In this document: piece by piece, positions 2,923 through 44,376 of the stretch
Position numbering within the stretch: the stretch's first letter is position 1
Layout: each line of letters starts with the position of its first letter
NCBI RefSeq assembly: GCF_038446525.1
Contig: NZ_CP151792.1
Span: 2,976,001 to 3,040,000, forward strand
Length of the DNA: 64,000 nucleotides
Direction: 5' to 3'
Source: Methanolobus sp. ZRKC5
GTDB taxonomy: Archaea > Halobacteriota > Methanosarcinia > Methanosarcinales > Methanosarcinaceae
The notes under the pieces: generated by a model
Told to the model about the DNA's origin: nothing
The model's database searches: none
Seen by the model: the letters and a program-made list of their open reading frames with translations, nothing else
Position numbers and translations under genes: made by a program

Positions 2923-4544
2923 GTAACTATTCAGCCTGACTGTTTTAATGATGCAAAAAACAATATACTATGGCTTCATTCTATGTGTTAAAAAATATTC
3001 AGTAAAATATCATAAAAAACGTCTATCAATCTGAGGGGATTTGTATAGACCGCGAAGAAATACTTGCAGTTTATGAAGCTGGTCCAGAAGCAGTAGTAGA
3101 ACTTGTAACTCGATTACTTGGGATAATTGAACATCAATCTCTCCAAATTGCACAACTTGAAGAGCGTGTCAGGCATTTGGAAGAAATGCTTGAAAAGAAT
3201 AGTCGCAACAGTAGCAAACCACCTTCTACTGATTCTTATGCACGGAATAAACCAACCGTTAAAAGTCAAAGAAAAAAGACCAATAAGCATGTAGGTGGTC
3301 AAAACGGTCATCCTGGTACTACATTAAGAATAAATGATGATCCGGATGAAGTTATTGTTCATCCTGTTAATCAATGCGTCAATTGTGGGAGATCGTTAGC
3401 TTCTGTTCCCTCTAACTATGAAAGAAGACAGGTCTTTGACATTCCTCCTATAACTATCAATTGCATTGAACATCGTTGCGAGATTAAAACATGTCCCAAA
3501 TGTTCTCATGTAAACAAAGCTCTTTTTCCAGATGGTGTAACTCAGCCGACTCAATACGGTCATCGAGTTAAGTCATTTGCAGTTTATTTGCACACTTACC
3601 AATTACTTCCTTATCAGCGTGTTACCAAGTTGTTCTCTGATATTTTGGGATGCAAGATAAGTCCTGCTACTTTGGTGAACACGGAACGTAGTTGTTTTGA
3701 GAAGCTTGGAGCTTTTGAAAATACAGTGAAACATCTCCTGAAAGAATCTCCTGTCATCAATCTGGATGAAACAGGAATGAGAATAAATGCAGTTCGTAAT
3801 TGGCTTCATGTGGCAGGTACAGACAAACTGACCTATTATTTTGCACATCGCAAAAGGGGCTCAGAAGCAATGGATGCTATGGGCATATTACCAGGTTACA
3901 CTGGTGTTGCAACACATGATTTTTGGAAACCGTACAACAAATATGAATGTCAACATTCATTATGTAATGCACATTTATTACGAGAGTTAACTGGAGCTTC
4001 CGAAAACAGGGATCAACAGTGGCCAAAGATAATGAGTGATCTCTTGATATGCATTAAACATCATGTTGATAATGATCTTTTAGATACTGAGCTAATTCAA
4101 AGGTTCAGTGAGGATTATGATCACATAACTTGTTTAGGAGTGAATGAAAATCCTCCTGATCCGGAATCAAATGTGCGGTCTAAAAAACGAGGACGTAAGA
4201 AGCAGACCACGGTAAAGAATTTGCTGGATAGGTTTATTGGCCATAAAGAGGATATCTTACGATTTATGTACGACCAAAACGTTCCGTTTGATAACAATCA
4301 GGCTGAAAGAGATATCAGAATGACGAAAGTACAGCAGAAGATATCAGGTACTTTCCGCAGTGAACAGGGTGCAAAAAATTTCTGCCGTATAAGAGGATAC
4401 GTGTCTACTGTTAATAAGAATTCTGAATCTGTTATCGATGCAATTAGTGCAATATTTTATGGCAATTCATTTGTTCCAAAGTTGCAGAATTGATCGTGGA
4501 TGAAGAAATCAGCTTGGTGGAAGTGAGCTAGGCTGAATAGTTAC
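2923..4544 (+). mobile_element. Inner IS66-type element (nested insertion)
   Basis: 1,622 bases with the same 15-base inverted repeats as the outer copy. The 8-base duplication AAAACAAT occurs at 2915-2922 and 4545-4552 and belongs to the left end of the outer element. This proves the inner copy inserted into the outer one rather than arising by tandem amplification. The transposase frame is intact. Confidence 0.92.
3039..4493 (+). CDS. IS66-type transposase (inner copy)
   Basis: DDE transposase of the IS66 TnpC type. The frame begins with DREEILAVYEAGPEAVV and a leucine-rich coiled coil, followed by NSRNSSKPPSTDS, a zinc-finger region with four CxxC-type cysteines (CVNCG and CPKC), and the catalytic domain with NLDETGMR and the C-terminal NNQAERDIRM glutamate motif. 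These are the standard IS66 landmarks. The start is unclear: in-frame coding continues upstream of the TTG at 3177 to about 3039, where only ATT or ATA codons follow the GAGGGG ribosome site at 3033. I place it at 3039 and regard it as a possible non-standard initiation. Confidence 0.85.
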   Translation: MCIDREEILAVYEAGPEAVVELVTRLLGIIEHQSLQIAQLEERVRHLEEMLEKNSRNSSKPPSTDSYARNKPTVKSQRKKTNKHVGGQNGHPGTTLRINDDPDEVIVHPVNQCVNCGRSLASVPSNYERRQVFDIPPITINCIEHRCEIKTCPKCSHVNKALFPDGVTQPTQYGHRVKSFAVYLHTYQLLPYQRVTKLFSDILGCKISPATLVNTERSCFEKLGAFENTVKHLLKESPVINLDETGMRINAVRNWLHVAGTDKLTYYFAHRKRGSEAMDAMGILPGYTGVATHDFWKPYNKYECQHSLCNAHLLRELTGASENRDQQWPKIMSDLLICIKHHVDNDLLDTELIQRFSEDYDHITCLGVNENPPDPESNVRSKKRGRKKQTTVKNLLDRFIGHKEDILRFMYDQNVPFDNNQAERDIRMTKVQQKISGTFRSEQGAKNFCRIRGYVSTVNKNSESVIDAISAIFYGNSFVPKLQN

Positions 4545-4626
4545 AAAACAATATACTATGGCTTCATTCTATGTGTTAAAAAATATTCAGTAAAATATCA
4601 TAAAAAACGTCTATCAATCTGAGGGG

Positions 4627-6081
4627 ATTTGTATAGACCGCGAAGAAATACTTGCAGTTTATGAAGCTGGTCCAGAAGCAGTAGTAGAACTTGTAACTCG
4701 ATTACTTGGGATAATTGAACATCAATCTCTCCAAATTGCACAACTTGAAGAGCGTGTCAGGCATTTGGAAGAAATGCTTGAAAAGAATAGTCGCAACAGT
4801 AGCAAACCACCTTCTACTGATTCTTATGCACGGAATAAACCAACCGTTAAAAGTCAAAGAAAAAAGACCAATAAGCATGTAGGTGGTCAAAACGGTCATC
4901 CTGGTACTACATTAAGAATAAATGATGATCCGGATGAAGTTATTGTTCATCCTGTTAATCAATGCGTCAATTGTGGGAGATCGTTAGCTTCTGTTCCCTC
5001 TGACTATGAAAGAAGACAGGTCTTTGACATTCCTCCTATAACTATCAATTGCATTGAACATCGTTGCGAGATTAAAACATGTCCCAAATGTTCTCATGTA
5101 AACAAAGCTCTTTTTCCAGATGGTGTAACTCAGCCGACTCAATACGGTCATCGAGTTAAGTCATTTGCAGTTTATTTGCACACTTACCAATTACTTCCTT
5201 ATCAGCGTGTTACCAAGTTGTTCTCTGATATTTTGGGATGCAAGATAAGTCCTGCTACTTTGGTGAACACGGAACGTAGTTGTTTTGAGAAGCTTGGAGC
5301 TTTTGAAAATACAGTGAAACATCTCCTGAAAGAATCTCCTGTCATCAATCTGGATGAAACAGGAATGAGAATAAATGCAGTTCGTAATTGGCTTCATGTG
5401 GCAGGTACAGACAAACTGACCTATTATTTTGCACATCGCAAAAGGGGCTCAGAAGCAATGGATGCTATGGGCATATTACCAGGTTACACTGGTGTTGCAA
5501 CACATGATTTTTGGAAACCGTACAACAAATATGAATGTCAACATTCATTATGTAATGCACATTTATTACGAGAGTTAACTGGAGCTTCCGAAAACAGGGA
5601 TCAACAGTGGCCAAAGATAATGAGTGATCTCTTGATATGCATTAAACATCATGTTGATAATGATCTTTTAGATACTGAGCTAATTCAAAGGTTCAGTGAG
5701 GATTATGATCACATAACTTGTTTAGGAGTGAATGAAAATCCTCCTGATCCGGAATCAAATGTGCGGTCTAAAAAACGAGGACGTAAGAAGCAGACCACGG
5801 TAAAGAATTTGCTGGATAGGTTTATTGGCCATAAAGAGGATATCTTACGATTTATGTACGACCAAAACGTTCCGTTTGATAACAATCAGGCTGAAAGAGA
5901 TATCAGAATGACGAAAGTACAGCAGAAGATATCAGGTACTTTCCGCAGTGAACAGGGTGCAAAAAATTTCTGCCGTATAAGAGGATACGTGTCTACTGTT
6001 AATAAGAATTCTGAATCTGTTATCGATGCAATTAGTGCAATATTTTATGGCAATTCATTTGTTTCAAAGTTGCAGAATTGA
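4627..6081 (+). CDS. IS66-type transposase (outer copy)
   Basis: Nearly identical to the inner copy, with an N-to-D change early on and P-to-S four residues before the C-terminus. The same non-ATG start problem applies, with the canonical TTG at 4765 as alternative. All catalytic landmarks are present, so it may still be active. Its own left inverted repeat is 1.6 kb away because of the nested insertion. Confidence 0.85.
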   Translation: MCIDREEILAVYEAGPEAVVELVTRLLGIIEHQSLQIAQLEERVRHLEEMLEKNSRNSSKPPSTDSYARNKPTVKSQRKKTNKHVGGQNGHPGTTLRINDDPDEVIVHPVNQCVNCGRSLASVPSDYERRQVFDIPPITINCIEHRCEIKTCPKCSHVNKALFPDGVTQPTQYGHRVKSFAVYLHTYQLLPYQRVTKLFSDILGCKISPATLVNTERSCFEKLGAFENTVKHLLKESPVINLDETGMRINAVRNWLHVAGTDKLTYYFAHRKRGSEAMDAMGILPGYTGVATHDFWKPYNKYECQHSLCNAHLLRELTGASENRDQQWPKIMSDLLICIKHHVDNDLLDTELIQRFSEDYDHITCLGVNENPPDPESNVRSKKRGRKKQTTVKNLLDRFIGHKEDILRFMYDQNVPFDNNQAERDIRMTKVQQKISGTFRSEQGAKNFCRIRGYVSTVNKNSESVIDAISAIFYGNSFVSKLQN

Positions 6082-6115
6082 TCGTGGATGAAGAAATCAG
6101 CTTGGTGGAAGTGAG

Positions 6116-6796
6116 CTAGGCTGAATAGTTACATTCTTTCTTTATTAATTTGCCTTTCACGAACTGGTAATATAATGGCTTTCCAGTTGCGATCTCCAAT
6201 TTGGTTATGTCCCCATCACTGATATTCTCAATGTACTTGACCACGGAGCGCAGGCTGTTTCCGTGTGCAGCAACAATGACATTTTTCCCCTCTTCAAGCT
6301 GAGGGAGAATATGTTCCTTAAAATAAGGGATCGTGCGCTCATAAGTATCCTTGAGACTTTCACCACCCGGAGGCTGTATGTCATAGCTTCTTCTCCAGAT
6401 GAAAACTTGTTCTTCCCCATAAACTTCTTTTGCTTCCTGTTTGTTCTGGCCTTGCAGGTTTCCGTAGAATCTTTCGTTAAGGGAATCGCTTGAATATATC
6501 GGTATCTCAGAATTATCGAATCTTGAAGGATGATGTGACCATTTGTCCCTTTTTTTGTTCTCATGCAGAAAAACGCCCGTTTTCTTCTGTTTTGCAAGTA
6601 TCAGAAACAGTGTCTCCTGTGCTCTGGATAATTTAGATGTAAAGGCAACACCCAGTTCTACGTTTGCAAGTTCTTCGGCACAATCCATTGCTTCACGAAT
6701 GCCTTTTTCACTCAGGGGTACATCGACCCACCCTGCAAACCTGTTCTCAAGATTCCATCTTGATTGCCCGTGTCTTACCAGTATCAGATAGTTCAT
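6116..6796 (-). CDS. gpmA: 2,3-bisphosphoglycerate-dependent phosphoglycerate mutase
   Basis: Histidine-phosphatase family protein of 226 residues that interconverts 2- and 3-phosphoglycerate in glycolysis and gluconeogenesis. Seen: the phospho-histidine loop LVRHGQSRWNLENRF (H9 is the nucleophile), SKLSRAQET, the NERFYGNLQGQNK segment typical of the cofactor-dependent mutases, PPGGESL, and the second catalytic histidine in AAHGNSLRS. The ATG at 6796 is preferred to the adjacent TTG at 6799. The last five residues, CNYSA, and the TAG stop come from the terminal repeat of the IS66 element. Without the insertion the frame would end after IKKE with TAA, so the enzyme is extended, not truncated. 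Confidence 0.88.
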   Translation of the reverse strand: MNYLILVRHGQSRWNLENRFAGWVDVPLSEKGIREAMDCAEELANVELGVAFTSKLSRAQETLFLILAKQKKTGVFLHENKKRDKWSHHPSRFDNSEIPIYSSDSLNERFYGNLQGQNKQEAKEVYGEEQVFIWRRSYDIQPPGGESLKDTYERTIPYFKEHILPQLEEGKNVIVAAHGNSLRSVVKYIENISDGDITKLEIATGKPLYYQFVKGKLIKKECNYSA

Positions 6797-6867
6797 CAAT
6801 TATCCCCACTAAACCGAATACTAGTTTGATTGCAGATTATTAAAACTTAAGGTTTTCTAAGGTAACT

Positions 6868-7755
6868 TTGATAAACGTACCCAGACATTGTTCTTCAGCT
6901 ATGAACACAGAAGACAGATTATGGGAATCGGATTTCCTGCCGTTGATTCATCCCCCGCAAAAAAAAGACAGTAATCAAACTTATTGTTTTGCATTTAAGA
7001 ACCGTGAGTTATTGCTGCTGAATGAGAATGACAGTTTAAGGCTGCCTTCTTTTGAAGAGATCGAGAATATGGGTCTCGATGTTCTGGGGACCCAGTATCT
7101 GGGTGAACTCAGGGATATTTCCTGCTTTTCAGCGGAGCTTGATAGTTCAAATGCTGCTGGGCCGATCGGTGAGAATGGCAGCTTTGTAGGTATTAGGGAG
7201 CTGACCGGAATTCTGGAAGAAAGTCTTGCTTATCTTGCGGGAAAAGCTGTTCATATCATGGAGTGGGACAAAAATACTTTATTCTGCGGCAGGTGTGGTT
7301 CCGGGACATCGCTTAGAGAGAATGAACGAGCAAAAGAATGTCCTGAATGTGGATTTCTTGCATTTCCCAAGATTTCCCCCGCTATCATTGTGCTTATAGA
7401 AAAGGATGACAGGGTACTGCTTGCTCGCTCTCCACATTTTAAGCCAGGACTTTATAGTATCTTAGCAGGTTTTGTGGAACCCGGTGAGTCAATAGAAGAG
7501 GCAGTTGTGAGAGAGGTCAGGGAGGAAGTAGGAATCTCAATAAAGAACGTCAGATATTTTGGCAGTCAGCCATGGCCTTATCCGGATTCGCTTATGATCG
7601 GATTTACCGCAGAGTTTGCAGAAGGGGAAATAGAAGTTGACGGTGTTGAAATAGAGGAAGCCGGATGGTTTAGAAAAGATGAGATTCCTGTTATTCCGAG
7701 GAATACTAGTATATCGGGATGGTTGATAGAACATTTCATTAGCAAGCATTCATAA
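6868..7755 (+). CDS. nudC: NADH pyrophosphatase / NAD-capped RNA hydrolase, Nudix family
   Basis: 295 residues from a TTG at 6868 with AAGGT just upstream; an ATG at 6901 would remove 11 residues. The protein has the NudC plan: an N-terminal domain, a zinc ribbon with C140, C143, C158 and C161 (CGRC and CPEC), the full Nudix box at 201-223 (GFVEPGES, then REVREEVG), and the NudC hallmark SQPWPYPDS at 233-241. The family hydrolyses NAD(H) to NMN(H) and AMP and removes NAD caps from RNA, in the cytoplasm. It is divergent from gpmA and appears monocistronic. Confidence 0.9.
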   Translation: MINVPRHCSSAMNTEDRLWESDFLPLIHPPQKKDSNQTYCFAFKNRELLLLNENDSLRLPSFEEIENMGLDVLGTQYLGELRDISCFSAELDSSNAAGPIGENGSFVGIRELTGILEESLAYLAGKAVHIMEWDKNTLFCGRCGSGTSLRENERAKECPECGFLAFPKISPAIIVLIEKDDRVLLARSPHFKPGLYSILAGFVEPGESIEEAVVREVREEVGISIKNVRYFGSQPWPYPDSLMIGFTAEFAEGEIEVDGVEIEEAGWFRKDEIPVIPRNTSISGWLIEHFISKHS

Positions 7756-7959
7756 TTTACAAATCCTTTTTTTTTTTTTTTGTATTTTGATAGAAAGGCA
7801 CTATATTTTGTTTATCTTATTAATATATTATTCTCAATATGTATTATTCTTAATAAACAGAAAGAATAATATGCACAACACTTATACTCTCTGATTACAA
7901 ATTATTAGTAAGAAATACGGCGTAAATAAAGTTCAGATTATTTTAAAGAGGTGTGAGGA

Positions 7960-9900
7960 TTGCTATTAAAAAGAATTATTTATGCAACATTATTACTGCT
8001 TATCTGTATCGTACTTGTGCAAACATGTGCTGCGTTAACATATTCAGGTGGAGGAGTATGGAATTTTTCAGAAGAGATAACTATTAAAGAAAACTCCGGG
8101 AATAACCTGATAAATTACCAGATACCCATTGTTCTTGATAGTTCCAACTTTGATTTTTCAATTGCACGTTCAGAAGGGGAAGACATTCGTTTTTCCTCCG
8201 GTGATAAGCAGCTTCAGCACTGGATAGAAGAATGGGATGTTTCAATGGAAGAAGCGGTCGTATGGGTTAAAGTTCCATCCATTGCGGCTAATGGCAGTGC
8301 TAAAATAACAATGCAGTATGGGAATCCTGATGCAGTCGATGTAAGCAGCGGTTCTTCTACTTTTGAGTTATATGATGATTTCAGTGGCTCCAGCTTATTT
8401 GGCAATTGGGAATCGTACACGACAGGTGGCAGTGAGCTAAAAGTTTCTAATGGTGTATCCAATCTCATAGTTCCAAAATTCCATCCGGAGGATGTTGTAA
8501 GTATCAAATCCAAGGATGAGTTCCCGATAAATTCCATGTTCGTGGTCAAAAGGAAAAAAGTGACCACAGGTACCGACAGTCGCGGTCCTATCATAGCACA
8601 GGGATTTGTAGACCCCCAAAGGGAAACAAAAAATCAGGTATTAACATCCACCGAACTTGAGAATGAGACCAAGGTGACCTGGATTCTTAAAAATTCCAAA
8701 AGTGATGCCCGTTATTTCCCCGCAGATATTACAAGTGTTAATGTAGCCGAAGGTGACTGGTACACAGTAGGCGTTGCATGGTATATGGGGGATGAATTTG
8801 GAAAGATAGCCTGGTTCAAGAATGGTGTCAGGGACAGCAGAATGGACCTTACGGCAACAGAAGAGAACAATTATATTCCTCTTACGGACATGAAGGTCTA
8901 TCTGTTTGCAAGCACCTATTCCGATGTTTCAGATAACACCGGATATGCATCTTTTGATTATGCCTACGTGCGCAATTTTGTTTCTGAAGAGCCAACTGTA
9001 ATGTTCGCAGGTAACATAGCACAAGAAGAGACAATTACAGAAGTTGAACCTGCAAGGATAAATATAACTCCTGCAAGTGGTCTTATGAGTGCGATCCGAA
9101 TCTTTGGCACAGAAGGTTATGATGATGCCACTATAGTAGATCTCAAAGATAGCGGGATCAATACTGTAATGTTGCTTACAGATGGTGATGACGTCTGGAA
9201 CCTGGAAAGATTCGTAAAACAGGCTCGTGACAACGACATGCAGGTATATGCAATGATATTCAATGATCCGAAGAGTGATTCTGATGAAGACAATTCTGTG
9301 TACGTCAAAAATGTACTGGAAAAAGTCATTGATTATAACAACAAGTCACTTTCAGCTTTTGATGGTGTTGATATTGCACTTGATCCATGCAGTGATGACC
9401 CTGAGGAAGCCTGCACTCTGAATCTGCTTCTTCTTGAGGATGTCCGTGAGATAGTAGGAGACGAACTTGCTGTGGCTATTGATATTCCGGCATCATATGC
9501 TCTGGCAGATATTCCTGAGGTTTCAGCAAGTGCTGACCTTATAGTCCTTCAGACATATTCTCTGGATGATAATTATCCCCAAACCAAAGATGCGATCATA
9601 GATTCTATAGCACCAAAGATGGGTGAAATAAGGATATCCGAATCAAAAGCTATCATTGGAATCGCAGTAAATGAAGGCTTCATGACCGATACTGGTGTCC
9701 AGAGCTTACTGGAAGAGCTTCAGGATTACTATGCCAACGATACTGCATTCATGGGTACTTCAATAGTCGTCTACGAAGATTATGATGAGTACAGTATGAT
9801 ACCTGAAACAACAGAAGAAAGTAGGGGAATACCAGGATTTACTGTATTGTTCGCTGCTGCCGGGTTGCTGGCAGTCTCATACAGACAAAAAAGAAGATGA
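7960..9900 (+). CDS. Secreted DUF2341-type protein with PGF-CTERM anchor
   Basis: 646 residues from a TTG at 7960 with AGAGGTG upstream (7947-7953). It starts with a signal peptide (KRIIYATLLLLICIVLVQ), followed by a DUF2341-type beta domain (ITIKENSGNNLINYQIPIVL, QHWIEEW) and a lectin-like region with DDFSG. The second half, from about residue 370, looks like a TIM-barrel glycoside-hydrolase-like domain (GINTVMLLTDGDD, DIALDP, ADLIVLQTYS). The C-terminus, GIPGFTVLFAAAGLLAVSY plus basic residues, is a PGF-CTERM signal recognised by archaeosortase A. It is therefore likely a lipid-anchored cell-surface protein. Substrate unknown. Confidence 0.75.
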   Translation: MLLKRIIYATLLLLICIVLVQTCAALTYSGGGVWNFSEEITIKENSGNNLINYQIPIVLDSSNFDFSIARSEGEDIRFSSGDKQLQHWIEEWDVSMEEAVVWVKVPSIAANGSAKITMQYGNPDAVDVSSGSSTFELYDDFSGSSLFGNWESYTTGGSELKVSNGVSNLIVPKFHPEDVVSIKSKDEFPINSMFVVKRKKVTTGTDSRGPIIAQGFVDPQRETKNQVLTSTELENETKVTWILKNSKSDARYFPADITSVNVAEGDWYTVGVAWYMGDEFGKIAWFKNGVRDSRMDLTATEENNYIPLTDMKVYLFASTYSDVSDNTGYASFDYAYVRNFVSEEPTVMFAGNIAQEETITEVEPARINITPASGLMSAIRIFGTEGYDDATIVDLKDSGINTVMLLTDGDDVWNLERFVKQARDNDMQVYAMIFNDPKSDSDEDNSVYVKNVLEKVIDYNNKSLSAFDGVDIALDPCSDDPEEACTLNLLLLEDVREIVGDELAVAIDIPASYALADIPEVSASADLIVLQTYSLDDNYPQTKDAIIDSIAPKMGEIRISESKAIIGIAVNEGFMTDTGVQSLLEELQDYYANDTAFMGTSIVVYEDYDEYSMIPETTEESRGIPGFTVLFAAAGLLAVSYRQKRR

Positions 9901-9918
9901 TGTGATAATCACATCATC
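9896..9918. terminator. Bidirectional hairpin terminator
   Basis: GATGATGTGA, loop TAA, TCACATCATC forms a perfect 10-base stem that overlaps the stop of the surface protein and is followed by T-rich sequence. It lies between convergent genes and could serve both. Confidence 0.6.
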
Positions 9919-9949
9919 TGATTCTATTTTTCAAATTTTGTTCTTTATT

Positions 9950-11584
9950 TTATTTTTTCAAAAGCTCAACTGCCAGGTCCCTGAGTTTGAACTTCTGCAC
10001 TTTTCCACTTGCAGTAAGTGGATAATCATCCACGAAGAAAACATGTTTCGGAACTTTGTAGCGTGCTATTTTTGAGCGACTATAATCCCTTACATCCTCT
10101 TCGGTGAGTTCATTTCCGTCCTTGGGGACCACAAAGGCTCCTACTATCTCACCGTATTTCTCATCAGGTATACCAACGACCTGTGCACTCTTGACACCTG
10201 GTACTGTGAACAGGAATTCTTCGATCTCCCTTGGATAGATATTCTCACCGCCACGGATTATCATATCCTTTATACGACCAGTGATGCGGTAATATCCGGC
10301 TTCATCAACTGTTGCAAGGTCTCCGCTGTGCAGCCATCCTTCCTTGTCAATTGCTATCTCTGTCATTTCAGGCATCTTGTAGTATCCTTTCATGACATTG
10401 TAACCACGGCAGCATATCTCACCCTGAACATCCGGTCCCACATTTTCTCCTGTTTCCGGATCGACTATCTTCACCTCTATCTCAGGCAAGGAAGTTCCAA
10501 CTGTACTGACACGGCGCTCGATAGGATCATCTGTGCTGGTCTGGGTAAATACAGGTGATGCTTCTGTAAGTCCGTAGGCAATGGTAATGTCCTTGCAGTT
10601 CATTTCATTGATAACCTTTTTCATAGCTTCAATAGGACATGGAGAACCTGCCATGATACCTGTTCTAAGTGAGGAAAGGTCGAACATTTTGAACATCGGG
10701 TGGCTGAACTCTGCAATGAACATTGTTGGCACACCGTAGAGGGCTGTACATTTTTCTTTCTGGACTGCAGCCAGCACCATGAGCGGGTCGAATAACTCGA
10801 TTATCACAAGTGTACCACCATGGGTTAGAGTTGCAAGTACACCGAGCACAATTCCAAAACAGTGGAAGAGCGGTACGGGCAGGCAGACTATATCTTTTTC
10901 AGTGAATTTCTGCCTTTCTCCGATATAGTATCCGTTGTTTAGGATATTGTAATGGGTCAGCATGACACCTTTCGGGAAACCCGTTGTTCCTGATGTATAC
11001 TGCATATTGATGACATCATGTGTGTCGAGTGTTTTCATGATCTTGTGAATCTCTTCATCATTGCCATGATTTCCCAAAAGGAATAACTCACGGGTGCTGT
11101 ACATTCCCCTGTGTTTTTCCTGACCGATGAAAATAACACTTTTCAGACAAGGGAACTTCTCGCTCTTAAGATTTCCACGGCTCTGTGTCTTCAGTTCAGG
11201 AACCAGTTCATTGATCGTGTCAATATAACTTACGTCCCTGAAACCGTCGATAATGGCAATGGCTTTCAGGTCAGCCTGTTTCATTACATACTCGACTTCA
11301 TGGATCTTGTATGCGGTATTGACTGTAACTAGAACAGCACCGATCTTTGATGTTGCGAACATGAAGGTCAGCCAGTCAGGCACGTTCGTTGCCCATATAC
11401 CAACTTTGTCACCTTTGCCTATACCAAGCTCTATTAGTCCCTTGGCCAGCATATTGACACGCTCGTCGAATTCTTTATAGGTGAATCTCAGATCCCTGTC
11501 GGGATAGATCATAAATTCCCTGTCCGGGTCATTCATGACCTGTTTCTCGAAAAAACCACCAATTGTATCATTTGTAAAAGGCAT
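9950..11584 (-). CDS. AMP-forming acyl-CoA synthetase
   Basis: 544 residues from the ATG at 11584, preceded by AAGGAGA; the frame is open 41 codons further but overlaps the upstream thioesterase gene. ANL-family landmarks: the P-loop [11 protein letters not shown] at about 196-206, YGLTEASPV, the GWLHSGDLA and [20 protein letters not shown] hinge motifs, and the catalytic lysine in [12 protein letters not shown]. It activates a carboxylic acid (probably medium- or branched-chain) to the CoA thioester using ATP. The three genes regulator, thioesterase and synthetase run in one direction with short gaps, so this looks like an acyl-CoA turnover operon under the first gene's control. Confidence 0.88.
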
Positions 11585-36027: not shown

Positions 36028-36174
36028 TGTTCTCTATTTTTTAACTTTGTGTTTTTCTCAGATCTTTTCTGATCATATGATAGGTATGCAAATTGAGACT
36101 TCCTGGGCTTCAAGGACACTTCGGCAACGACATGATTTATTTACCAGTAGCTGTTCAATTTATTACGAGGTCAA

Positions 36175-37003
36175 ATGACGATAAAAAGTAAAAAAATGTT
36201 CCCAGCAAAAAGAAACGATTGTGAAATGGGAAAATGCTCTAGTTCTAATGATAAAAGAAATATTAAGATCATTGGGTCAATTATCCTATTCGTAGTCTTA
36301 TGGTCGATTCTTCTTTTGTAACTATTCAGCCTGGCACGATTTGCCTATTGGTACTGATTTCATCGAAATAGAGATGTCTGCTCACTAACAATCTAACAAT
36401 CAAAAAAGCAATCAATAGCAACAATCAAAATAAATGATCCTAATGAAATTTACGTTTCAACTTTTTGTCAAGATTGTTATTGATAGCGTTTTTATCAGGC
36501 TGAATAGTTACCTTCTTTTTTATTATCCTCCCGTGGAAATCGTTGAAAGACTGGGAGTTCGTAATGTTTACATTTTTATCTTCCTAATGTCTCTGATAGG
36601 TGGTGTTTCCACATTTACCTCTACCACATTTTACACGGCACTTATCGCGATTTCTTTTGGTGGAGTTAATTCTTTGTGGTTCTCTTTAGTTGCAAGTGCA
36701 GGTCTTACTTTTGGAGATATGTTGTTCTATTATCTGGGTATAAAGTGTAAAAAATGCATTAAGGGTAAGTCTGAGGTTTACGTTTCCCACCTGACAAAGC
36801 GCATGAAAAAGTTAGATGACAGGATAATCATGCTGCTCATATTCTTTTACTCATTATCTCCTCTTCCAAGTGATATAATTGCAATAGCACTTGCAATAGT
36901 GGGGTTTCCATTCAAAAAAATGATAATTCCATTGTTTATGGGAAATTTTGCACTTATTCTTATGATTCTGGAAATTTCAAAATTGGGATATAGTCTCATC
37001 TGA
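36175..37003 (+). pseudogene. SNARE-associated/DedA-like membrane protein, split by a MITE
   Basis: ATG at 36175 follows GAGG; the frame runs through a lysine-rich start and one helix (IIGSIILFVVLWSILL) to a TAA created by the MITE end. Removing the MITE and one target copy joins it in frame as WSILLFYYPPVEIVERLGV. The remaining part has several membrane helices with SFGGVNSLWFSLVASAGL, TFGDMLFYYLG and PSDIIAIALAIVGFPFKKM, reminiscent of the VTT/DedA fold. A fragment could be translated from an ATG inside the MITE (36434), missing the first helix. Function of the intact protein is unknown. Confidence 0.7.
36318..36511 (-). mobile_element. 194-bp MITE with IS66-type ends, copy 2
   Basis: Termini GTAACTATTCAGCCTG. 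Perfect 8-base duplication CTTCTTTT at 36310-36317 and 36512-36519. It interrupts the membrane-protein gene and supplies an ATG and 26 in-frame codons to the downstream part. Confidence 0.92.
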
Positions 37004-37172
37004 TGCTATTGAAATATTATCTTCATTTTTCACTCCGAAATTGTATTAGCAATCTGAAAATATTTTCAGAACACATTGCTGATCCATATATTCATTGTCC
37101 CACTGGCAAAGAGCACTTGAATCAAAGTTTTTGAGTGAAACTTTAAGTAGTTTTACATCAAATTCTTTTTTG

Positions 37173-37912
37173 GGCATTGTTAATTAAACATAGCTAGTTC
37201 TTTATTCCTATATTTCATCAAGAGCAAAACGGAGATTTTTAGCATTTCAAGACTTTTAGTATAACACTTTGACTTTCTCCTTAGTCTTGCCAGGAAATGC
37301 CTAAATATGCTGTTGTATCCTTCAACAGTATATGTTTCTGCTTTTGATCGAGTATGGATGTTTCTGGGGACTAACTTGGCATATGCCCTCCAATAATCCG
37401 TCATTACTTCCCCAACCTCTTTTGTCTTTAACTTTTTCCAGAGTTTTTGTCCTGTTTTTGTTCCTCTGCTGCCAAAAGAGCAATCGATGAATTTCTTCCC
37501 ATATCTATCAACAGCAATCCATATCCAGCAGTAGTTTTTTTATTCCCAATATAAGTATGCATCTCGTCCAATTCCACAACAGAAATCTCATTTTCACTTT
37601 TTAGATCCTCTAATTCACTACCAAATTTTCGAATCCATTTTTGAACAGAAACATGACTAACGCCCAAAAAACGTCCAATTGAACGAAATCCCAACCCCTC
37701 CAGATAGAGTTGTAAAGCCTGTCGCTTAACAGATACGGGGCTAGCGGTGGATTTTATATCTACTGAATAGTTGTATCCACAATCATGGCATTTGTAGCGT
37801 TGTCGACCATCAATCCTACCGTTCTTCTTATGACTGGAACTCTTACACTTTGGACAATTCATATATAAAAAGAGGCCATCATATTATATAACGATGTTTA
37901 ATTACCAAAGCC
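37173..37912 (-). mobile_element. IS1-family element
   Basis: 740 bases. The ends GGCATTGTTAATTAAACAT and the complement of ATGTTTAATTACCAAAGCC are inverted repeats with two mismatches. The 8-base duplication CTTTTTTG is at 37165-37172 and 37913-37920. It inserted about 24 bases before the nitroreductase start, between that gene and its presumed promoter. Confidence 0.88.
37180..37862 (-). CDS. IS1-family transposase, two frames joined by -1 frameshift
   Basis: The first frame (37862 to 37428, 144 residues) has an InsA-type zinc finger (CPKC and CHDC) and helix-turn-helix (GFRSIGRFLGVSHVSVQKW). The second frame has the InsB catalytic part (YCWIWIAVDRYGKKFID, GEVMTDYWRAYAKLVP, and HTRSKAETYTVEGYNS). 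The two frames meet at a run of seven A's (about 37538-37544), where reading -1 joins IGNK to NYCWIW. IS1 elements use programmed -1 frameshifting at an A-rich slippery site, so this is likely normal expression and not a mutation. Confidence 0.8.
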
Positions 37913-37936
37913 CTTTTTTGTTATATTTTAATTGGA

Positions 37937-38461
37937 ATGGGATTTAACATGGAAGTTTTAGAAGCTATTCACACACGTAGAAGTATCAGGAAGTACACAG
38001 AAGAACCTGTATCTGATGAAATGGTAAAGAAATTGCTGTCTGCCGCTATGAATGCGCCTTCAGCAATTAACGAACAGGCCTGGGCATTTGTGGTGATAGA
38101 TGACAGAAAACTGCTCGATGAGATCCCTGAATATAGTCCCTACGCAGCTATGTGCCGTGGGGCTCCCCTTGCAATCCTTGTATGTGGGGACACGAGTCAG
38201 GAAAAGGCTCCTGGATTCTGGGTACAGGATTGTTCGGCAGCCATACAGAACATTTTGCTTGCTGCTCATGCACTGGGACTTGGTGCTGTCTGGACAGGTT
38301 CCTATCCAATGGAAGATCGTGTAGAAGGTTTCAGAAAAGCTTTCGCACTACCAGAAAAAGTAATTCCTCTGGGACTGGTTGTTATTGGTCATCCAGCTCA
38401 GGAAGTAGCTCCTGCGGACAGGTACATTGAGAGTAAAGTTTACTATAACAGGTATGGGTAA
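37937..38461 (+). CDS. Nitroreductase-family FMN oxidoreductase
   Basis: 174 residues (162 or more from the ATG at 37949, which fits the family better). Landmarks: EAIHTRRSIRKYTEEPV (FMN phosphate site), LLSAAMNAPSAINEQAWAFV, WVQDCSAAIQNILLAAHALG, GAVWTGSYP and PLGLVVIGHP. The enzyme reduces nitro groups, quinones or flavins with NAD(P)H; exact substrate unknown. The IS1 copy ends only 24 bases upstream, so it may now be transcribed from within the element or be silenced. A MITE lies 36 bases downstream. Confidence 0.85.
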   Translation: MGFNMEVLEAIHTRRSIRKYTEEPVSDEMVKKLLSAAMNAPSAINEQAWAFVVIDDRKLLDEIPEYSPYAAMCRGAPLAILVCGDTSQEKAPGFWVQDCSAAIQNILLAAHALGLGAVWTGSYPMEDRVEGFRKAFALPEKVIPLGLVVIGHPAQEVAPADRYIESKVYYNRYG

Positions 38462-38497
38462 ACCTAAACATAAAGTTATAAATATGGAATAATAAAT

Positions 38498-38691
38498 GTA
38501 ACTATTCAGCCTGATAAAAACACTATCAATAGCAATCTTGACAAAAAGTTGAGACCTACATTTTATTAGGATCATTAATTTTGATTGTTGCCATTGATTG
38601 CTTTTTTGATTCTTAGGTTGTTAGTGAGCAAACATCTCCGTTTTGATTAAATCAGTATCAATAGGCTAATTGTGGTAGGCTGAATAGTTAC
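38498..38691 (+). mobile_element. 194-bp MITE, subfamily B, copy 3
   Basis: Same GTAACTATTCAGCCTG termini but internal sequence differs at several bases from copies 1 and 2 (for example CACTATCAATAGC and GAGACCTACATTTT). Duplication TAATAAAT at 38490-38497 and 38692-38699. Identical to copy 5 at 47920. Confidence 0.92.
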
Positions 38692-38712
38692 TAATAAATT
38701 TCCATTTTTTCT

Positions 38713-38895
38713 TTACATCATTTTTAATTGTTTGAAACTTACATTTTCATGAGTATCATGGAACTCCGGGCTGATTATTAGATAAGAGTTCAGCATTTCA
38801 TAGGCTGACTCAAATGCAGACGTTGAATTATTATTGAGCAGTAGTCTTCCATAAATGTTCCTGAATATATCAAATTCTTTTTTAGTAAGTATCAA
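38713..38895 (-). CDS. Small hypothetical protein, 60 residues
   Basis: From a TTG at 38895: ILTKKEFDIFRNIYGRLLL, then NNNSTSAFESAYEMLNSYLI. Charged and helical; the frame is open a few codons further upstream to a TAA. No recognised family, weak start, low confidence. It may be coupled to the small membrane protein upstream. Confidence 0.3.
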   Translation of the reverse strand: MILTKKEFDIFRNIYGRLLLNNNSTSAFESAYEMLNSYLIISPEFHDTHENVSFKQLKMM

Positions 38896-38921
38896 ATCAA
38901 GTGAATCATCGTTTTACCTTT

Positions 38922-39110
38922 TCATACTGCAACATCCACGACCTCTGGCATAATGTTGTTGAATTGTAATTGAGCAGGAGGATGAATTATGACTTGTATA
39001 TCGTAATCATGTCCTGTAGTATATAGGTAAAAGCATACTACATGAATAATCATTATAAACAGCAGTAATGTTATATGCGATGACTGTTTGGTTATATATG
39101 AGGTCTTCAT
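38922..39110 (-). CDS. Small membrane protein, 62 residues
   Basis: MKTSYITKQSSHITLLLFIM with one hydrophobic segment (about 13-30), then a short outside part. Unrecognised. Divergent from the CdhA gene. Could be a real single-pass peptide or a chance frame. Confidence 0.3.
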   Translation of the reverse strand: MKTSYITKQSSHITLLLFIMIIHVVCFYLYTTGHDYDIQVIIHPPAQLQFNNIMPEVVDVAV

Positions 39111-39149
39111 AGTAGTGCAAATGACCTAGACATAAACAGCTATTGATAC

Positions 39150-39162
39150 GTTTTTAATATTT
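39150..39162 (+). promoter_or_regulatory. Possible TATA box for orphan cdhA
   Basis: TTTTTAATATTTC about 60-70 bases before the ATG at 39222, with AAGGGGT at 39207-39213 as ribosome site. Confidence 0.35.
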
Positions 39163-39221
39163 CATAACACTGATTTTTGGCCTAACCAATAAACCACTGG
39201 GAGAATAAGGGGTAAGGAATA

Positions 39222-41627
39222 ATGAGTAAGCTAACTTCAGGTAAGATTTCCATCGAAGACTTGGAAAACGTTCAGATCAATGTTAGTAACATTGTAGGAG
39301 CTATCGAAAAGGAGATTGAAGATAAAGGAGAGGGTGGACCAACACCAAAACCCGGAATAGCAGCATTGAGAGCCTGGGATTTTAAACTGCTTGATCGGTA
39401 CGAACCTGTGTATACACCGACCTCCGACCAATGCAGCTACTGTACATTCGGTACATGTGATCTGACTGGTAATAAAGAAGGAGCTTGTGGCATCAATCTG
39501 GAAGGTCAGACCGCGCGGGAGTTCCTGTTTAGTACGATAGTAGGAGCCGCGGCCCACTCTGCACACGGACGTCACCTTCTTCATTATTTGATTGAAAAAT
39601 TCGGCAGGGATTATCCCATTGATGTGGGGCTATCTAACATCAAAGCACCTAACACCCAGACTGTCACAGGATACAAACCAGAAACAATCGGTGATCTTGA
39701 AGCGGTGCTGGTGTATGTAGAAGAACAGCTAACTCAGCTTATAGCAACAATCCATATGGGCCAGGAAGGTGAAGCTATCGATTTCGAGTCAAAAGCCCTA
39801 CACGCCGGGATGCTCGACCATGTGGGAATGGAAGTATCTGATATCGCACAGATCTCATGTCTGGGATTCCCAAAGGGAGAGCCTGAAACACCTCTTGCAG
39901 AGATAGGGATGGGAACTATCGATTCCACAAAACCTGTCCTGATAGTTATAGGGCACAATATGGCGGGTGTTTCCAATATAATTGATTACATGGAAGATCA
40001 TGATATTCTTGATAAGATAGAACTTGGTGGACTGTGCTGTACCGCCCTTGACATGACCCGCTATAAGACAGAGGGCGGGAAAGCCCCAAAAGCAAAGATA
40101 GTCAGTACCCTTGCCAAACAGCTGAAGATGATACGTTCAGGTGTTCCGGATGTCGTTGTTGTTGATGAGCAGTGTGTGCGTGCCGATGTCCTCAGAGAGG
40201 CACAGAAGCTCATGATTCCTGTGATCACCACCAATGCAAAAATAATGTATGGCCTTCCGGACAGGTCAGATGACAGTGTAGATGAAGTCCTTAATGATCT
40301 GGCCAGTGGAAAGGAGCCGGGTGCGCTCATGCTTGACTTTGATAAGCTTGGAGAGCTGGCACCACGTCTTGTGCAAAAGATGGCGACCATACGCGACGAA
40401 AAGGGCATAAGGGGCCTCCCAACCGAAGACGAGTTCAAAGAACTTACGTCAAGATGTGTCCACTGCCTGGCATGTGAGCTTGCGTGTCCGACTAATCTGC
40501 CGATCAGCGATGCAATGACTGCTGCAGAAGGTGGAGATCTGGAACCATTTGAGCTACTCCGTGACAAATGTATAGGGTGTGGCAGATGCGACAATTCATG
40601 CCCAAAAGATATTCCTGTACTGAATGTGATCGAGAAGGCGGCACAGAAGATCATACGGGCAGAGATCGGAAAAGTAAGGGTTGGAAGAGGTCAGATCAGT
40701 GACCCTGAGATCCGAGAAGAGGGAGTAAACCTTGTACTTGGAACAACACCTGGCATCATTGCAATAGTGGGATGTTCGAACTATCCGGGTGGAACCAAGG
40801 ATGTGTATGATATAGCAGATGAGATGCTTAAGAGGAATTACATTGTTCTGGTTTCAGGATGTTCGGGAATGGATGTTGGAATGTACAAGGATGAAGAGGG
40901 GCAGACCCTCTATGAGAAGTATCCGGCAAAGTTCCTCAAAGGCAACTTGATCAATATGGGTTCCTGTGTATCCAACTCCCATATTACGGCAGTTGCGATA
41001 AAAGTTGCAGCAATATTTGCACAGAGGGACATCACCGGCAACTACGAAGAGATCGCTGACTATATCCTGAATCGTGTGGGTGCAGTTGGGGTTGCATGGG
41101 GTGCCTATTCGCAGAAAGCTCTGTCCATTGGAACAGGCTGTAACAGACTGGGAATACCTGTAGTGCTCGGACCCCACGGCTCGAAATTCCGCAGGGCAAT
41201 AATCGGTAAACCATATGATACGGACAAATGGAAAGTATACGATGCACGTAATGGTGAAGTGATGCCAATACCGCCTGCGCCTGAATACCTGCTGACAACG
41301 GTGGAGACTATTGAAGAGCTAATGCCAATGCTTGCCAAGAGCTGCATACGTCCGAGTGATAATAATATGGGTAGGATGATCAAACTCACTCATTATATTG
41401 AACTCAGCCAGAAGTATCTTGGAATAATGCCTGATGACTGGCATACTTTTGTCAGGACCGAAACAGACCTGCCTCTTGCAAAGCGTGGAGAACTTCTTAA
41501 GATGCTTGAAGAAGAACATGGATGGGAGATCGACTGGGACAAGAAGAAGATTCTCTCAGGTCCGTCTATGAAACTGGATGTTTCAGCCCAACCGACTAAT
41601 CTAAAAAGACTTTGTAAGGAAGCATAA
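39222..41627 (+). CDS. cdhA: CO dehydrogenase/acetyl-CoA synthase, alpha subunit (orphan)
   Basis: 801 residues, full length for CdhA of the ACDS complex, which oxidises CO and splits or makes acetyl-CoA in methanogens. Cluster ligands are visible: C71, C74, C79, C89 for the B/D-type clusters; two ferredoxin-type sets, C412/C415/C418/C422 and C450/C453/C456/C460; and C-cluster candidates in [46 protein letters not shown] and GSCVSNSH. No cdhB, C, D or E follows; the next 550 bases hold only an integrase remnant. Methanosarcina species are known to encode a stand-alone CdhA3 paralogue besides the operon copies, and this looks like an equivalent. All key cysteines appear intact. Confidence 0.92.
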
Positions 41628-41889
41628 TCTCCGGCTTACGGTACAATAAATATTCAGTATCCACAAAATATGGTGTAAAAAGCTTAGAGCCAACCTAGCT
41701 AAAGGTAGTTGCAAAACTGATGACCCAGAATTCCACATACACCGGATAATGGACTCAGTCGCTCCACTAAAAAACATTTGATAGACCTAAGAAGATGCCG
41801 ATATTTTGAAGAATTTACGCAAATTGTGGCTTCGGAAGGTGTTGAATGAGCCCTTCGTCGTACTCATGCCTGCATTTTCATAAATCCTA
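41628..41889. other. Gene-free stretch after cdhA
   Basis: No downstream cdh gene and no gene supported on either strand. AT-rich, possibly degenerate mobile DNA. Confidence 0.4.
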
Positions 41890-42090
41890 CTATAAGCTTT
41901 GAAATAGCGCCTGCTGAATATCTTCCATCTTAATCTTCTTCGTATTTTCTTTAAGGGGTATCACCTTATTTTTTGACCTTGGTAATTTTGGGATCTCAAT
42001 GTAAAACGATTTGTAGAATGTACCAATGGTACTGATATATTTATCAAGTGTTCCCGGTGTAAGAGTTTTTTCAACATTACTTGGCTATTG
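41890..42090 (-). pseudogene. Tyrosine recombinase (integrase) fragment
   Basis: Reading on the minus strand to a TAG at 41890-41892: VEKTLTPGTLDKYISTIGTF, then YKSFYIEIPKLPRSKNKVIP, then a lysine-rich linker and IQQALFQSL. This looks like the SAM-like N-terminal domain and linker of an archaeal tyrosine recombinase; the catalytic domain is absent. It marks the remains of an integrated element. Confidence 0.5.
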
Positions 42091-42179
42091 AAATAACCAT
42101 ATTAAGCCAGGGATGATGGTTGAAAAATAAAAGTGGAATAAATCAATGTAAAAAATAGAATAAAAAGAGTAAAAAGGTT

Positions 42180-42380
42180 TTATTCACTTGGTTTTTCGTA
42201 GTCAGCATGTGCATAGAAGCATCTTTTAGGAGTACAGACCGCATCTGTGCTCTTGAGTTTCTTGAGTATTTTGCTGACCTCTTTGCTTTCAAGACCGGTT
42301 GCTTCTGCAATGTCACCAGGTCTGAGTGGTTTTGCTGCATCTTTAAGTGCATCAAGTACTTTCTGTTCATCGTCTGCCAT
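42180..42380 (-). CDS. Small winged-helix transcriptional regulator
   Basis: 66 residues: EQKVLDALKDAAKPLRPGDI, then AEATGLESKEVSKILKKLKS, then DAVCTPKRCFYA. This is a compact winged helix of the MarR/IclR-like kind, without an effector domain. Methanogens encode several such mini-regulators. Two cysteines in the wing (V-C-T and R-C-F) might sense redox or metal. It stands alone; targets unknown. Confidence 0.75.
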   Translation of the reverse strand: MADDEQKVLDALKDAAKPLRPGDIAEATGLESKEVSKILKKLKSTDAVCTPKRCFYAHADYEKPSE

Positions 42381-43379: not shown

Positions 43380-44376
43380 TTTAGTGCACATAAAAAAAGT
43401 TTACTTGATATCGTTTTTAAGTCCGATAAAAGAAAGAATGTGCTCCTATTGTTACAAAATGAGCCCCAGAAAATGGAGATACTTCTTAAGTCTTTAAAAA
43501 CAACCAGACAGGCTTTACTTCCGCAGACAAAAATTCTGGAAGAACAGCACCTCGTTTTTCATTACGATGATACTTATGAATTGACAAACATCGGAAAGCT
43601 GGTAGTTGACGAAATGGTTCCATTATTAGGGACAATTGAGGTTTTCGATAAAGACATTGTCTACTGGGGAAATCACAACGTTGACTTTATTCCGCCTCAT
43701 CTGCTCAAAAGGATAAGTAAGATGAGAAATCATGAGATAATTAATCCTTCCCTGGCAGACATGTATACTGTTCATGAAAAGTTTAATGACAATTCCAGTC
43801 CGACAAAGTCTGTCTATGTGGTTACCGCACTTCTATATCCAGATTATCATAAAATAATCTCTGGATCGATTGAAAAAAAGATAGATTTTTTGTAACTATT
43901 CAGCCTGGCACGATTTGCCTATTGGTACTGATTTCATCGAAATAGAGATGTCTGCTCACTAACAATCTAACAATCAAAAAAGCAATCAATAGCAACAATC
44001 AAAATAAATGATCCTAATGAAATTTACGTTTCAACTTTTTGTCAAGATTGTTATTGATAGCGTTTTTATCAGGCTGAATAGTTACGATTTTTTTATGATT
44101 GTCTCAAAAGAGTTACTCGAAAAGATAAAACTACATCACTCTGTAGATTTTAAGAAATTCATTGAAAATGAGTATTTCAATTTTTATGTTTACACCAAAA
44201 AAATGGAGTTCTCGTTCTTTACATTTGATAATCACCACATACTTGCAAGTTTACAGACGAAAAACGGTGAGTTTGACAACAAACATATTCTATGTTCTAC
44301 CAAAGATTCACTCAAATGGGGAAAAGAGCTCTTTGAGTACTGTTTGAAGGATTCTGTGTTGGTAAGTGAGCTGTGA
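43380..44376 (+). pseudogene. FilR1/DUF1724-type winged-helix regulator, split by a MITE
   Basis: In-frame coding from about 43380 reads KKSLLDIVFKSDKRKNVLLL, the typical helix-turn-helix start of methanogen FilR1-like regulators, then LEEQHLVFHYDDTYELTNIG and a sensor region (KSVYVVTALLYPDYHKIISG). A MITE breaks it after EKKIDF; removing it and one target copy continues with FMIVSKELLEKIKLHHSVDF to a stop at 44376. No ATG or TTG precedes KKSLLD; a GTG at 43440 would lose the first helix, so the start may also be damaged. The last part could be expressed from an ATG in the MITE (44008). Confidence 0.7.
43892..44085 (-). mobile_element. 194-bp MITE with IS66-type ends, copy 4
   Basis: Duplication GATTTTTT at 43884-43891 and 44086-44093. 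Same orientation relative to the host gene as copy 2, again fusing a 26-residue MITE-encoded start to the rest of the gene. Confidence 0.92.

Follow-up and report, generated by a model that had tools for sequence, protein, structure and literature searches.

A stand-alone CO dehydrogenase alpha-subunit gene (cdhA) in Methanolobus sp. ZRKC5, apparently shared with a second genus by lateral transfer and distinct in origin from CdhA3

What does a complete cdhA gene do in a methanogen when the genes that normally accompany it are missing from its surroundings? The question is raised by the gene at 39222-41627 (+) of the window, which is the whole analysed stretch of 64,000 nucleotides and corresponds to positions 2,976,001-3,040,000 of a genome assembled as a single contig (3,053,834 bases, 99.99% complete). 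The literature describes the CO dehydrogenases of archaeal clade A as coupled in nearly all cases to genes for acetyl-CoA synthase (PMC13056359; PMC13240472); a marine survey labels approximately 24% of all Ni-CODHs as 'standalone' and finds clade A mostly in the neighbourhood of cdhC (PMC13240472), and lone genes of clade A are mentioned for M. acetivorans (PMC13056359). The original prediction for this locus described a full-length CdhA without cdhB-E nearby and suggested that, if orthologous to CdhA3 of M. acetivorans, it would extend that type to another genus and could act as an independent CO dehydrogenase or as a sensor.

The gene starts with ATG, encodes 801 aa, and contains no stop codons. 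The product passes the CdhA family test (TIGR00314, 1114.7 bits against a cut-off of 781.3, residues 6-794), carries the PF03063 Prismane/CODH domain together with Fer4 clusters, and aligns end to end with the solved chain 9c0q_A, while 31ox_C and 3cf4_A also match; in the CooS family test (TIGR01702) it reaches only 79.7 bits against a cut-off of 478. Among its 22 cysteines, 20 are Cys in all 130 aligned CdhAs, Cys798 is conserved in 129/130, and Cys213 in 84/130; in addition, His245 is His in 130/130. The cluster-motif cysteines are all intact, as predicted for the visible cluster ligands; the assignment of single ligand residues to clusters B-F and C, including that of His245 as the C-cluster histidine, is assumed here. 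The G+C content of the gene is 0.470, in comparison to 0.445 for the operon cdhA of the same genome and 0.396 for the window.

The isolation of the gene is confirmed by a tblastn search of the 64 kb window with CdhB, CdhC, CooC, CdhD, and CdhE of the same genome (E-value limit 10), in which neither genes nor remnants gave a significant hit and the best match scored 24.3 bits; the adjoining cdhB, C, D, and E that define membership in an ACDS operon are not there. The genome encodes two cdhA genes, and the second (C1:533641-536031(-), 73% identical to the window CdhA) sits in a complete operon, L005, consisting of cdhA (8629-11043), cdhB (8116-8628), cdhC (6670-8085), cooC (5905-6657), cdhD (4552-5883), and cdhE (3139-4548). 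The possibility that the window gene is the sole, translocated copy is rejected due to the presence of this operon, and the gene stands as a paralogue. There is one cdhB in this genome and one in G018, the other genome with a copy of the window type, encoding the candidate partner for an alpha2-epsilon2 assembly; the window's genome also has one cdhC and encodes RnfC, and no CooS above the family cut-off was found in it.

The rarity of this arrangement was evaluated by searching for cdhA in all 111 genomes of the family Methanosarcinaceae and comparing neighbourhoods at 110 places, namely 108 CdhA places with flanks, the window, and its own operon; other contig-end or fragmentary matches (e.g., G088, G094, G004, G002, G089, G093, G072, G070, G048) were left out. 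Immediate adjacency of cdhB was observed in 104/110 places; three others (L115, L139, L149) are cut by the contig end before cdhB could appear, and three stand alone although their flanks are complete: the window, L042 of G018, which belongs to another genus (g7), and L121 of genome G074. In the wider order, cdhB lies beside cdhA in 20/20 further places. The only full-length match above 80% identity to the window CdhA among the 185 genomes of the order is that of G018 (93%), also stand-alone, so that this lone lineage is present in 2/185 genomes; short contig-end pieces above the same limit were detected in G110 (83%, residues 649-801) and G005 (86%, residues 765-801), and the closest operon CdhA is only 78% identical.

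Some side observations emerged from the same survey. No full-length cdhA was found in the 8/8 genomes of genera g6 and g8, whose best E-values (~1e-9 to 1e-3) are due to short ferredoxin-type stretches. Genus g5 has a deep-branching CdhA (L112 8010-10992, G006; L148 2-2826, G009) with cdhB adjoining and no cdhC, cooC, cdhD, or cdhE within ~7 kb downstream; here the alpha and epsilon genes form a pair that lacks those for acetyl-CoA synthase. A Methanosarcinaceae-like cdhA-B-C with a long branch was also found on a 214.7-kb contig of family f4 (L155 7951-12286, G135); the rest of f4 has distant CdhAs, and this group of genes is possibly a transfer or a binning error.

The relation to CdhA3 can be addressed through genome G074, which we take to be M. 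acetivorans C2A. It has CdhA at three places, of which two belong to full operons, whereas the third (L121) is isolated. This set fits the M. acetivorans CdhAs as described in PMC4930933. The lone CdhA of L121 shares 98% identity with the CdhA that the Cdh1 operon of the same genome encodes, and is sister to it, inside the Methanosarcina clade, both in a quick first tree (LG+G4, two outgroup rows) and in a mixture-model tree built on 52 chosen rows out of 136; judged by its sequence, the CdhA3 locus is a recent copy of the organism's own Cdh1 alpha subunit. The window gene pairs instead with the L042 gene in a clade of its own (100/100 in the mixture-model tree), and a tree constrained to unite all three lone genes is worse by 458.5 log-likelihood units (p-AU 0.00102). 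Orthology to CdhA3 is rejected, and the trees indicate that the window-type lone cdhA and CdhA3 arose separately. The original prediction is contradicted on this point and retained in part on another: a stand-alone orthologue does span a second genus, that of G018, but its lineage differs from that of CdhA3.

Because of this separate origin, a CdhA3-like function is not transferable by descent. A role in sensing CO or redox state has been suggested for the lone CdhA3 in the available text of two studies (PMC4652020, PMC4930933); by analogy, binding of CO or CO2 to the C-cluster of the window protein would influence expression of the resident cdh operon, and the protein would sustain little flux. 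The stand-alone state, with no partner genes, would suit such a role, as would the suggestion made for CdhA3; nevertheless, the window gene is not an orthologue of CdhA3, no regulator gene is kept beside both lone copies (blastn, in which only the cdhA unit is shared), and the conservation of catalytic and cluster residues exceeds what sensing needs, although CdhA3 retains both. A sensor-regulator is considered unlikely here.

An origin within the genus is also contradicted. A grouping with g1, the genus of the window and presumably Methanolobus, is rejected both for the window gene (p 1.5e-27) and for the lone pair (p 8.9e-5); these results dismiss both a recent duplication of the organism's own operon cdhA and vertical descent within the genus. 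In the mixture-model tree the lone pair lies, weakly (84/74), beside a clade of g7, g10, and g3, and neither a grouping with g7 by itself nor one with g10 by itself is rejected (p 0.248 and 0.268, respectively); a position outside all other Methanosarcinaceae CdhAs, obtained in the quick tree, was dropped in favour of this placement in the fuller tree. As for the genus labels, g10 includes Methanohalophilus, g11 Methanomethylovorans, and g12 Methanosalsum, and g7 and g13 are presumably Methanococcoides and Methanosarcina.

The two lone copies are 93% identical, in contrast to approximately 72% for the operon copies of the same two genomes. A blastn comparison of the window with L042 aligns only 39004-41721, at 86%, and 41712-41754, in otherwise unrelated surroundings; the shared unit is composed of the gene, ~220 bp upstream (39004-39221, +), and ~130 bp downstream (41628-41754, +, in two pieces, 41628-41721 and then 41712-41754). 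The upstream region includes a TATA-like stretch at 39092-39099, recognised by eye and aligned between both copies, as a putative promoter. In G018, the match to 41712-41754 lies beyond an extra CMD-family gene. This gene is part of an inserted stretch, L042:7608-11170, which starts 8 nt past a tRNA-Ala gene and is missing from G020, a near-identical congener with flanks at 92-96%; its surroundings showed no recognisable direct-repeat attachment site. No electron-transfer or CO-related partner gene common to both lone loci was detected by neighbour comparison and blastn.

In the window, the gene occupies a slot (36032-42156) that varies within the genus and is bounded by lysA on one side and a small winged-helix gene on the other, as delimited by blastn of the flanks: alignments to three congeners (L183, L187, L185) end at ~36031 and restart at ~42157-42211. 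Congeners share the lysA and wHTH/HIT flanks, not the interior. Of 25 congeners with a HIT match, 16 were compared: the stretches of 15/16 contain both lysA and the HIT-family gene, and those of 0/16 contain cdhA. The length of the lysA-to-winged-helix interval varies widely among congeners, reaching ~7.8 kb in L186. Besides cdhA, the slot contains a nitroreductase gene, an IS1-family remnant, and MITE-like repeats. The IS1-family transposase (37180-37862, -) is broken into two ORFs, of which 37431-37862 matches NF033558 transpos_IS1 with 125 bits and 37180-37404 is assigned by position only. A MITE-like repeat with terminal inverted repeats GTAACTATTCAGCCT lies upstream of cdhA (38491-38711), a related one downstream (43870-44107), and a further copy at 36314-36520. 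Carriage of cdhA by these repeats was dropped as unsupported, since their 204-bp core is present at ~46 genome places, in some cases in tandem clusters, and is not cdhA-specific, and since the homology with G018 starts only within the interval that the repeats flank, at 39004. Relatives were not found in viral contigs, and the plasmid search gave one weak partial match (25% coverage, 29.9% identity).

The gene occupies unrelated sites in two genera and is missing from relatives of both, which favours gain over loss as the direction of movement, and the stand-alone cdhA has apparently been laterally transferred across Methanosarcinaceae genera. A recently arrived passenger gene, intact and functionally idle or already decaying, would agree with a variable slot littered with IS and MITE debris and with an occurrence in only two genomes of the order. 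The comparison of the two lone copies is difficult to reconcile with idleness: by NG86, dN is 0.035 and dS 0.526 (dN/dS about 0.07), differences at codon positions 1/2/3 are 32/21/216, and the reading frame is uninterrupted. This pattern indicates that the lone cdhA is under strong purifying selection, although some of this selection may have acted in the donor, and a mere passenger appears very improbable.

Constraint was also evaluated at 231 near-invariant columns, conserved at 98.5% or more in other CdhAs with L121 left out. The lone pair keeps 228/231 and departs at three (G295S, H447R, Y656F), in a range of 0-4 departures for 13 other groups or single rows; the lone cdhA is therefore kept about as tightly as the operon copies. 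H447R precedes Cys450, which belongs to a ferredoxin-type motif, by three residues, and due to these three departures the function may have shifted. The retention of 228 columns would be expected with selected subunit contacts, and would also fit an alternative alpha subunit that swaps into the resident ACDS complex as a spare or condition-specific isoform, raising or tuning its activity, in a genome with a single cdhB and a single cdhC. The gene comes, however, from outside the genus and differs by 27% from the resident alpha subunit, with which the resident partners have diverged together; exchange into the complex is rated as unlikely, to the same degree as a sensor-regulator.

The preferred reading is that the stand-alone cdhA moved between Methanosarcinaceae genera together with its own upstream region and entered the variable slot, and that its product is a functional CO dehydrogenase, which may rely on CdhB and CooC of the resident operon; judged on sequence, this is given about an even chance. 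The product is most likely catalytically competent. It would form the usual alpha dimer and might bind the epsilon subunit CdhB and receive its nickel from CooC, with the resident operon as the source of these two proteins. CO would be oxidised to CO2 with electrons passing to ferredoxin, which could be re-oxidised via Rnf, while acetyl-CoA would be neither made nor cleaved by the lone CdhA; the benefit to the cell would perhaps be the use or the removal of CO. The alpha-epsilon part of the M. acetivorans enzyme, isolated apart from the complex, reduces ferredoxin with CO (PMC3160891), and therefore the acetyl-CoA synthase subunits are unnecessary for CO oxidation. By analogy, a CdhA that is intact and under selection could oxidise CO likewise where the cell also has CdhB, CooC, and Rnf; Rnf itself is reported for 19/19 Methanolobus genomes (PMC12918732). 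The original proposal is supported to this extent: the gene is a stand-alone paralogue in a genome with a complete operon elsewhere, and a candidate for an independent CO dehydrogenase or sensor.

Lone CdhA itself is already known; the new element is an independent stand-alone CdhA lineage common to two genera by apparent lateral transfer, and no description of a window-type gene was found in the titles, abstract openings, and passages of the literature on lone CdhA outside Methanosarcina. A bolder extension, tentative and held with somewhat less than even confidence, is a mobile one-gene CO dehydrogenase lineage, spun off from an ACDS operon and spreading among methylotrophic Methanosarcinaceae as the archaeal clade A counterpart of CooS, using CdhB, CooC, and ferredoxin/Rnf of the host to exploit CO or to clear it. 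A conserved CdhA that stands alone and moves laterally, in a CooS-less genome, would be a natural test of an archaeal alpha subunit serving alone, and would show that lone CdhAs arise repeatedly and not by descent from CdhA3.

Among comparable systems, the lone CdhA of G018 is 93% identical, stand-alone, and flanked by the shared upstream and downstream stretches, but it was inserted elsewhere, next to tRNA-Ala, and its insert also carries a CMD-family gene. CdhA3 of M. acetivorans is likewise a cdhA without cdhB-E in a genome with complete cdh operons elsewhere; in contrast, it is a recent copy of Cdh1 alpha within Methanosarcina, and a single clade with the window gene is rejected. The operon CdhAs of ACDS (e.g., M. 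barkeri 3cf4, M. thermophila 9c0q) have the same full length, clusters, and TIGR00314 membership, whereas the window cdhA has no adjoining cdhB, C, D, E, or cooC. Finally, monofunctional CooS would share with the window CdhA the oxidation of CO apart from acetyl-CoA synthase, if the preferred reading is right, although the TIGR01702 score places the window CdhA in another sequence class.
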